Assembly: GCF_002165775.1 (NCBI RefSeq)
Contig: NZ_NDYP01000003.1
Location: forward strand, 1-64,000
Direction of reading: 5' to 3'
Length of the DNA stretch: 64,000 nt
Origin: Campylobacter concisus
Lineage (GTDB): Bacteria > Campylobacterota > Campylobacteria > Campylobacterales > Campylobacteraceae
The notes under the pieces are model-generated. The model had not been told where the DNA came from and made no database searches. It saw nothing but the letters and a program-made list of their open reading frames with translations. Below, piece after piece: positions 6,583 through 8,514 of the stretch; the first letter of the stretch is position 1, and each line of letters starts with the position of its first letter. Both the position numbers and the translations under genes were made by a program.

Positions 6583-7020
6583 ATGAAAGCTAAAATTTTA
6601 CTTCCACTGGCAACTGCCATCATGTTTTTGGGTTGCTCATTTTTTGAGGATAACCCACCAGTGCGAAAACAGCCAAGACAGGTCATGCAAAATACACCAG
6701 TAAAAAGCTCGATCAAAGGTTTTATAAAAGAGGTTACTTATAAAGATTCAAAATACTGCTATGAAATAGTGGCGAGCGATACAAAAAATCACAAACTCAA
6801 TAAAGCAAATTTTTGTGCAAATAGATACTATTATGATAAAGGCGACTTGGTCTATGCGACCTTTTATGCAGATAAACTTATAGATATGCTTATTATAAAA
6901 GAGGGTGGCTCTAGTGGCTTATATAATGGTATAAAAAAGCCACAAAATGAAGTGATTATTAAAAGAAAAAATGTAAAAACAAATATCGAAGTGCCAAAAG
7001 AGGAAAAAATTTCTTTTTAA
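6583..7020 (+). CDS. Putative lipoprotein of unknown function
   Basis: A 145-residue protein with an N-terminal lipoprotein signal: basic start MKAKILLPLATAIMF, then the lipobox LGC, with lipidation expected at Cys18. The mature part has a short OB-like beta segment (KGFIKEVTYKDSKYCYEIV ... GDLVYATFYADKLIDMLIIKEG), two further cysteines and a basic tail. I do not recognise a named family. Location is predicted to be the membrane, periplasm-facing. A strong AAGGAGAAG site precedes the ATG. The downstream region contains an independent promoter, so it ends its own unit. Confidence 0.8.
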   Translation: MKAKILLPLATAIMFLGCSFFEDNPPVRKQPRQVMQNTPVKSSIKGFIKEVTYKDSKYCYEIVASDTKNHKLNKANFCANRYYYDKGDLVYATFYADKLIDMLIIKEGGSSGLYNGIKKPQNEVIIKRKNVKTNIEVPKEEKISF

Positions 7021-7051
7021 TTACCGTTGATTTACTGCTTGCTTATATAAT
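7021..7051 (+). promoter_or_regulatory. Promoter of the candidate small RNA
   Basis: TATAAT at 7046-7051 is perfect. Upstream are TTACC (7021-7025) and TTACT (7032-7036), spaced 11 bases, ending nine bases before the -10, the same layout as the dps promoter. No gene with a ribosome site follows before the terminator at 7083. Confidence 0.55.
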
Positions 7052-7057
7052 TTCAAC

Positions 7058-7114
7058 AGCAATCAAAACTAGAACTCCTTTTAAGGGGCAAAGCAACAGC
7101 CCCTTTTTCTTTTT
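7058..7114 (+). ncRNA. Candidate small RNA, possible porin regulator
   Basis: A perfect TATAAT (7046-7051) is followed by about 25 bases of unstructured sequence and then a strong Rho-independent terminator, giving a predicted transcript of about 55 bases with no reading frame. The segment CTCCTTTTAAGG (7075-7086) is perfectly complementary over 12 bases to CCTTAAAAGGAG (7259-7270), the Shine-Dalgarno region of the next gene, which encodes the major porin. Campylobacter lacks Hfq, so action would be Hfq-independent. CTCCTT can pair with many ribosome sites, and the AAGG end is also part of the terminator stem, so the target is only a hypothesis. Confidence 0.5.
7083..7114 (+). terminator. Strong Rho-independent terminator
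   Basis: AAGGGGC-aaagcaaca-GCCCCTT, a perfect seven-base stem followed by TTTCTTTTT. It ends the candidate small RNA and would also stop read-through from the upstream lipoprotein gene. Confidence 0.85.
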
Positions 7115-7212
7115 ACTTCTTTAAAATTTTGTCCTTGTTTTATTTAAAATTATCAACTTTTATCTATTTTTGATTAATTACGGTAAACGATCGGTAACTG
7201 AAATTAAAAATT

Positions 7213-7245
7213 TTAAGCTTCATGTTAAATTTTATTGATTATAAT
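7213..7245 (+). promoter_or_regulatory. Promoter of the major porin gene
   Basis: TATAAT at 7240-7245 lies 31 bases before the ATG at 7276. TTAAG (7213-7217) and TTAAA (7225-7229) lie upstream with a 12-base period. Further upstream, GGTAAACGATCGGTAACTG (7181-7199) contains another near-repeat of unknown meaning. Confidence 0.6.
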
Positions 7246-7275
7246 CGTCAGCACAAAACCTTAAAAGGAGAAAAA

Positions 7276-8514
7276 ATGAAACTAACGAAAATTAGTTTAG
7301 CCGCTTTGGTTGCTTTAGGTGCATTTTCAAGCGTAGCAAGTGCTACTCCACTTGAAGAAGCTATAAAAAATGTAGATCTTTCAGGATTTGCAAGATATAG
7401 ATATACTCATACTCATGAGTATGACAAAAGACAAGAAAATGTCATAAAAGCCAATGATGCAAAACATAACTTTAAAATGATTACAAATTTTAAAGCTGCC
7501 ATCGATGATAACTTCTTTGGTGTTATCGGCCTAAGATATAATGCAAACGATGGTTCAGGTGATAATGTAGACGCAGGAACAGACAAGACAGATACAAAGA
7601 CACCTTTTAATGTTCACCAATTCTATCTTGGTTATAAAGCTGGAAATACTACTATAACAGCTGGCAAACAAGAGATTGGCTCATACTTTACAGATGATGC
7701 TATCGGTACTGGTGTAAGAGTAGTAAATGAAGATATTGAAGGTCTTACCCTAACAGCTTTAGCTTTTGATGCACTAGAGGGTGGAGATGAAAGCGATGGC
7801 GATCTATATAAAACAAACGTAACCAATAACCTAGATGGTTACGATGTTGGAAATCTATATGCAGCTGGTATCGCTGGTTCATATGATCCTATCAATTTCC
7901 AACTATGGTATGCTAGTCTAACAAATCTAGCTGACCTACTTGCAGCTGATGTTTCAGCAAATTTTGCTATTAATGATGATATTAGCTTAGGCGGTAGAAT
8001 CAACTATGTAAATAGTACAGCTGATAAAGAAGCAAAAAATTATTTATCTTCATTAAATGGTTATAAATACAATGATGGTAACTTCTATGCTGGTGAACTT
8101 TCAGCTTCACTATTTGGTCTTGATTTATCTGCTGGCTATATAGGTTGGAAAGTTCAAGATAAGGGCGCAACATCATTTAGTTTTGAAGATCAAGGTTCTT
8201 TGATAGATGCTGGTGAAGATGTATTTGATTGGACGCTTACAGAAGGTAAAGGTAACTTCTTCTATGCAACAAGTGCATATGCATTTGATAAATTTACAGT
8301 TGGCTTGGATTATGTAAAAGGCAATATAAAAACTGCAGGAGCAAATAATCAAGATGTAAAAGAGAAAATAGAAGAATTTGTTCCAAGATTTGCTTATCAA
8401 TACAGCAAAAAGTTGAAATTTAGCTCATTCTACTCTTTCCAAACACATAAATTTGCTAATGATGTTAAAGCAAAAGAAGATAAATTTAGATTTGAGGCTA
8501 AATACTCATTCTAA
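7276..8514 (+). CDS. Major outer membrane porin (Campylobacter MOMP family)
   Basis: A 412-residue outer-membrane beta-barrel. It has a signal peptide (MKLTKISLAALVALGAFSSV, cleavage after ASA), a mature start TPLEEAIKNVDLSGFARYRY typical of Campylobacter MOMP, many alternating Gly/aromatic strands (FYLGYKAGNTTITAGKQEIG, NFQLWYASL) and a C-terminal strand ending FEAKYSF with the terminal Phe needed for Bam-dependent assembly. It forms a trimeric diffusion channel and is likely a major surface antigen. The ATG at 7276 follows AAAAGGAGAAAAA; an upstream in-frame ATG at 7222 precedes the promoter -10 and is rejected. It has its own promoter and terminator, and the ribosome site may pair with the upstream small RNA candidate. 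Confidence 0.95.
   Translation: MKLTKISLAALVALGAFSSVASATPLEEAIKNVDLSGFARYRYTHTHEYDKRQENVIKANDAKHNFKMITNFKAAIDDNFFGVIGLRYNANDGSGDNVDAGTDKTDTKTPFNVHQFYLGYKAGNTTITAGKQEIGSYFTDDAIGTGVRVVNEDIEGLTLTALAFDALEGGDESDGDLYKTNVTNNLDGYDVGNLYAAGIAGSYDPINFQLWYASLTNLADLLAADVSANFAINDDISLGGRINYVNSTADKEAKNYLSSLNGYKYNDGNFYAGELSASLFGLDLSAGYIGWKVQDKGATSFSFEDQGSLIDAGEDVFDWTLTEGKGNFFYATSAYAFDKFTVGLDYVKGNIKTAGANNQDVKEKIEEFVPRFAYQYSKKLKFSSFYSFQTHKFANDVKAKEDKFRFEAKYSF

Follow-up and report, generated by a model that had tools for sequence, protein, structure and literature searches.

A conserved small RNA gene 5' of the porin gene of Campylobacter concisus, probably of the CjNC140 family, with a predicted pairing to the porin ribosome site

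Overview

In the window analyzed here, a stretch of 64,000 nucleotides of Campylobacter concisus (contig NZ_NDYP01000003.1), the space between a lipoprotein gene and the MOMP porin gene almost certainly holds a small RNA (sRNA) gene, and comparison among genomes makes it very probable that this sRNA is a member of the CjNC140 family (Table 1). Considered as a whole, the data are best and fairly probably explained by a regulated sRNA of this family that would act through Hfq-free anti-Shine-Dalgarno pairing, with the neighboring porin as its likeliest target. The new elements, a clear extension of what was known, are the wider range of the CjNC140 family and a newly noticed control site common to the sRNA and the porin. 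A preliminary description of this DNA had located the -10 box, a 12-base segment, its porin site and a terminator, and all of these coordinates prove exact on direct reading. In the following, g1 denotes the genus of the window (taking in C. concisus, C. showae, C. gastrosuis and C. majalis), g2 the jejuni-like genus, and g4, g5 and g7 other Campylobacter genera.

Table 1. Features of the sRNA-porin locus in the C. concisus window
Feature	Position	Strand	Remarks
Lipoprotein gene	6583..7020	+	145 aa; constant upstream neighbor of the sRNA gene
Direct repeat TTACCG-N4-TTTAC, 11-bp (units RTTACC, TTTACY)	7021..7035	+	Predicted OmpR/PhoB-type response regulator site
sRNA promoter -10 box TATAAT	7046..7051	+	Read directly; conserved
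Predicted sRNA, ~57 nt	7058..7114	+	5' end predicted; conserved in 48/48 genus genomes
Invariant 5' segment AGCAATCAA	7058..7066	+	No variation in g1; largely retained in g4; missing from g2
Single-stranded anti-Shine-Dalgarno seed ACTCCTTTT	7074..7082	+	Invariant in g1
CTCCTTTTAAGG, sRNA part complementary to porin	7075-7086	+	Read directly
Intrinsic terminator	7083..7114	+	Stem 7083-7089/7099-7105, then T tract to about 7114
Terminator stem letters	AAGGGGC 7083-7089 / GCCCCTT 7099-7105	+	Read directly
Direct repeat, second copy	7183..7197	-	Porin promoter region
Porin promoter -10 box TATAAT, predicted	7240..7245	+	Leader ~25 nt; read directly
CCTTAAAAGGAG, porin Shine-Dalgarno region	7259..7270	+	Perfect complement of sRNA 7075-7086
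MOMP porin gene	7276..8514	+	ATG at 7276; Pfam Campylo_MOMP PF05538, E 8.8e-93

Conservation and structure of the sRNA gene

The strong support for the sRNA gene is comparative. The stretch 7021-7120 is present in all 48 g1 genomes, and aligning them shows no change in the -10 box, 5' segment or seed, but divergence everywhere past the T tract; the unpaired 5' part of the sRNA (AGCAATCAA-N-ACTCCTTTT) is likewise unchanging across the genus. The pattern AGCAATCAA-N2..16-CTCCTTTT is found once in 47 g1 genomes and twice in another (G032), with no match for the reversed pattern. The -10 box is conserved as TATAAT, or as TATACT in jejuni-like genomes, and the terminators vary in their letters with the full stem retained (AAGGGGC...GCCCCTT, TGGCGAG...CTCGCCA, GGCGTCTC...GGGACGCC, GGTGAG...CTCACC). 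The terminator hairpin is the sole fold of the predicted RNA, in which the CTCCTT seed is unpaired with a probability of 0.97. Genus-wide conservation, terminators rebuilt around a kept stem and a counterpart, CjNC140, detected by Northern blot in C. jejuni all bear out the small RNA that the preliminary description had proposed, and we infer that it is transcribed in C. concisus.

Single-sequence searches were less informative. At gathering score, an Rfam search of the window returned tRNA only and no sRNA family; a promoter scan of this sequence alone gave promoter-like sites at chance level, and a terminator scan of the same sequence did not pick up the sRNA terminator because its loop is 9 nt long. 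In the literature, we found no description of this sRNA in C. concisus. The chance level of promoter-like sites in the region, together with the position directly behind the lipoprotein stop codon, would suit an element that does no more than terminate the lipoprotein transcript, the TATAAT and the match to the porin both being accidental. This is improbable in the extreme, since the -10 box, the repeat with its fixed 10-bp spacing, the 5' segment and the seed are kept across genera, while it is the terminator letters that change.

With respect to gene order, a lipoprotein-like open reading frame lies directly 5' of the sRNA in 49/49 g1 loci examined, and the same order is observed at four g4 loci (L071, L072, L167 and L168). 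In the window, the sRNA promoter region touches the stop codon of the lipoprotein gene, for which no family match was found in Pfam. The gene 3' of the sRNA varies within g1, being the porin in some species and an unrelated or opposite-strand gene in others. A cis-acting leader or attenuator, whereby some transcripts begun at 7058 continue past the terminator into the porin, would fit the arrangement in C. concisus, where the element lies on the same strand 160 bp 5' of the porin. However, at least seven g1 species retain the complete element before an unrelated or opposite-strand gene, which rules out such a leader as a general explanation. In addition, a -10 box of its own and conserved repeats precede the porin; we therefore consider attenuation very improbable.

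Two further observations concern the gene itself. Within g1, the 5' segment AGCAATCAA shows as little variation as the seed. It has no evident pairing partner and may provide a second contact or 5'-end protection. One contig of genome G032 carries two copies of the lipoprotein-sRNA locus (L035 and L036), ~211 kb apart and identical in their flanks, and p19 is also doubled, which reflects either a segmental duplication or an assembly artefact.

Relationship to CjNC140

CjNC140 of C. jejuni lies immediately 5' of porA, is 73 nt long (deleted as 66 bp from -110), binds AAGGAG RNAs through its CUCCUU segment in EMSA, and was not found encoded in any non-thermotolerant species (PMC10470494). The C. 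concisus sRNA resembles it in having its own promoter, an intrinsic terminator, an accessible CUCCUU and a place 5' of the porin (PMC10470494, PMC3656092). More specifically, the RpoD-type promoter reads ATTA-N7/8-TTWAC-N10-TATA in both, the accessible segment corresponds to the invariant seed, and the terminator stands at the 3' end; the gene is on the same strand just 5' of MOMP in C. concisus (7058-7114 vs 7276), but not in part of g1. The promoter repeat and its spacing are identical in the jejuni-like genome G120 (a C. jejuni MOMP N-terminus served as query for finding porin loci only; G120 is 96% identical to it, hence "jejuni-like").

Running the pattern ATTA-N7/8-TTWAC-N10-TATA-N16..46-ACTCCTT on 153 family genomes gave matches in 72 (47 in g1, 19 in g2, 5 in g4 and 1 in g5), each with a single match except G032 with two, against 1 for the reversed-pattern control. 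By their coordinates, 17 of the 19 g2 matches, all 5 in g4 and the one in g5 lie just 5' of a porin gene, and sRNA-like elements with variant promoters are also seen 5' of porins in g5 and g7. Because the g2 matches sit at the place of CjNC140 and carry its seed, the C. concisus sRNA very probably belongs to the same family. It nevertheless differs from CjNC140 in length (~57 nt vs 73 nt), in having AGCAAUCAA at its 5' end in place of the anti-start-codon segment CAUUCAUAA, and in showing no preferential match to p19, a CjNC140 target. The 5' parts differ between g1 and g2, with g4 forming a bridge to g1 only; as the sequences are unlike outside promoter and seed, the proposed kinship is based on the locus, on the promoter architecture and on the seed. 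Overall similarity is the customary criterion, although homology of short sRNAs does not require it.

Some candidates were rejected. Matches of the looser pattern AGCAATCAA...CTCCTTTT in two g2 genomes (G059 and G148) look like chance, being away from any porin and inside apparent coding sequence, and in a g5 candidate (G073) only a terminator-like stretch matched. Another C. jejuni sRNA, CJnc230/FlmE, likewise exposes an unpaired anti-Shine-Dalgarno segment (CCUU) in an Hfq-less host, but it is largely processed from behind flgE, is RpoN-dependent and comes from a different locus (PMC11187230).

A direct repeat common to the sRNA and porin promoters

The 1.87-Mb genome contains exactly two exact copies of TTACCG-N4-TTTAC, 162 bp apart, one in the sRNA promoter and one, on the opposite strand, in the porin promoter region; in many sister genomes the same promoter pair accounts for all copies. 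Reversed controls of the motif give a few matches per genome. The copy count is unremarkable; it is the coincidence of place that is noteworthy. When up to two mismatches were allowed, the promoter motif was no commoner than its control, and no wider regulon emerged.

In the sRNA promoter, the half-sites are 11 bp apart and end 10 bp before the -10 box, an arrangement kept in g1, g2, g4 and g5, and repeats of the type GGTAAAY-N4-GGTAAY are kept 5' of the g1, g4 and g5 porins, including porins that do not adjoin the sRNA. An 11-bp spacing of two half-sites ahead of a -10 box is the layout of promoters activated by OmpR/PhoB-type regulators (the pho box). By analogy, the repeat at 7021-7035 is a candidate binding site for an OmpR/PhoB-type response regulator. 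HP1043 of Helicobacter pylori likewise uses 11-bp-spaced repeats (PMC5253667). A similar combination is known from the CiaR-dependent csRNAs of streptococci, whose promoters carry an 11-bp-spaced response-regulator repeat (TTTAAG-N5-TTTAAG) and which are predicted to pair with start-codon regions, although phylum, repeat letters and targets are all different (PMC9603419).

Porin promoters of several genera (7183-7197 and loci L167-L196) show 11-bp-spaced GGTAAY arrays followed by TTTAAG-N5-TTAAG-like repeats that resemble the HP1043 consensus. At one porin locus (L175, genome G060), a run of about nine G lies ~160 bp 5' of the porin start and is possibly a phase-variable tract.

Pairing with the porin start region

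The complementarity between the sRNA and the porin Shine-Dalgarno region claimed in the preliminary description is perfect over its 12 bases. One in 20,000 base-shuffled versions of the sRNA gave such a match to the porin start region. The match is the longest among 399 sampled start regions, all others reaching at most 10 bases. The above-chance match is partly due to the seed being a general anti-Shine-Dalgarno sequence, and 4 of the 12 paired bases sit in the terminator stem, so that both caveats raised earlier hold. Five genes in the C. concisus genome carry AAAAGGAGTT...ATG.

Ranked by pairing energy, computed without accessibility and with start sites called by a simple rule, among start regions from sampled 20-kb stretches rather than whole genomes, the porin is 2nd of 399 in C. 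concisus, 8th of 333 in the jejuni-like genome, 19th of 309 in g4, 21st of 316 in g5 and 62nd of 332 in g7 (combined Fisher p 3e-4, the genomes not being independent). Among equally strong Shine-Dalgarno sites of the same five genomes, its ranks are 1/36, 8/89, 12/84, 1/27 and 12/29; as it is not consistently first, taking the general seed into account weakens the porin preference.

Furthermore, we observe that the pairing of each sRNA with the porin of its own lineage is the best of 120 group permutations. The extended pairing runs to the start codon in g2 (UUCAUAAGAAAAACUCCUU with AAGGAGAAUUCUCAUGAA), takes the form UUAGAACU(U)CCUUU fitting AAAGGAGUUCUAA in g5, and runs toward the terminator side in C. 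concisus. Among g1 genomes, a porin adjacent to the sRNA ranks at 0.5-9%, against a median of 21% for porins at other sites (Mann-Whitney p 0.007, approximate as the genomes are related), and in 7 of 9 cases a porin away from the sRNA ranks 72-192 of 400 with the seed retained. Most distant porins match only ordinarily. The preliminary description held that its proposal would be refuted if close relatives with promoter and terminator intact had lost the complementarity, and this applies in part: the seed has been kept, whereas the additional pairing has gone in C. majalis, C. gastrosuis and several others. A second MOMP copy (G093:C1:1134544-1134741) is seemingly broken by a stop codon.

These patterns have to be weighed against a plausible, though less likely, alternative: a real CjNC140-family sRNA for which the porin is no meaningful target. 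Its seed would then serve different mRNAs or a second sRNA, and the match to the porin would be a by-product of a strong ribosome site and the A/T tracts around the terminator. In C. jejuni, PorA protein is unchanged by western blot upon deletion and complementation of CjNC140, whose published targets are p19, positively regulated, and CjNC110 (PMC10470494). The retention of the seed where the porin is distant and poorly matching points the same way and means that other targets must exist. On the other hand, the lineage-specific extended matches fit their own porin best, adjacent porins rank high, and the porin and the sRNA have a predicted regulator site in common. As MOMP is abundant and probably stable, a steady-state western blot in stationary phase may miss a moderate effect, and the activation of p19 by CjNC140 indicates that the outcome can differ by target. 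In the specific case of p19, the gene is present in C. concisus but its start region ranks only 94/400 for pairing with the sRNA; it is unsupported as a conserved target in g1, and targets may differ between lineages. Silencing of the porin, as first proposed, therefore stands in part: the best 12-base match, the lineage fit and the common regulator site argue for it, the ordinary match of distant porins and the unchanged PorA against it. That the porin is a direct target of the sRNA in C. concisus is, judging from sequence, a serious possibility that falls slightly short of an even chance.

Proposed mechanism and significance

In the regulated, Hfq-free pairing that we favor, the sRNA would act in trans after transcription from its own promoter behind the lipoprotein gene, switched by an OmpR/PhoB-type response regulator on the 11-bp direct repeat at -35. 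This regulator would also bind 5' of the porin, setting sRNA and porin together. The unpaired ACUCCUUUU could pair with strong Shine-Dalgarno sequences without Hfq, which C. jejuni is published to lack, and thereby block ribosome loading or, at some mRNAs, promote it; where the flanking bases fit too, translation initiation would be blocked. Where the sRNA lies next to the porin, the porin mRNA would be the likeliest direct target, through lineage-specific pairing past the Shine-Dalgarno core.

MicF of enterics is an Hfq-dependent sRNA linked to porins (OmpC/OmpF), and its regulator controls porins as well. The system predicted here is similar in its porin-linked sRNA and common regulator, by analogy and not by kinship, and differs in sequence and in regulator, with porin repression as a prediction from complementarity. 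A more far-reaching reading, possible but on balance doubtful, is a pan-Campylobacter module of Hfq-free porin control, with one regulator, a common repeat and seed flanks that co-evolved with the neighboring porin in each genus; it would be an independently arisen parallel to the enteric OmpR-MicF-porin circuit.

If the sRNAs described here are orthologs of CjNC140, which has been described as limited to thermotolerant species, few sRNAs of the family would be conserved as widely. Their detection through promoter and seed instead of whole-sequence similarity would then suggest that BLAST surveys underestimate the age of other epsilonproteobacterial sRNAs as well. The otherwise unique repeat would tie sRNA and porin to one regulator, and Hfq-free adjustment of the single dominant porin of Campylobacter becomes a directly testable question.
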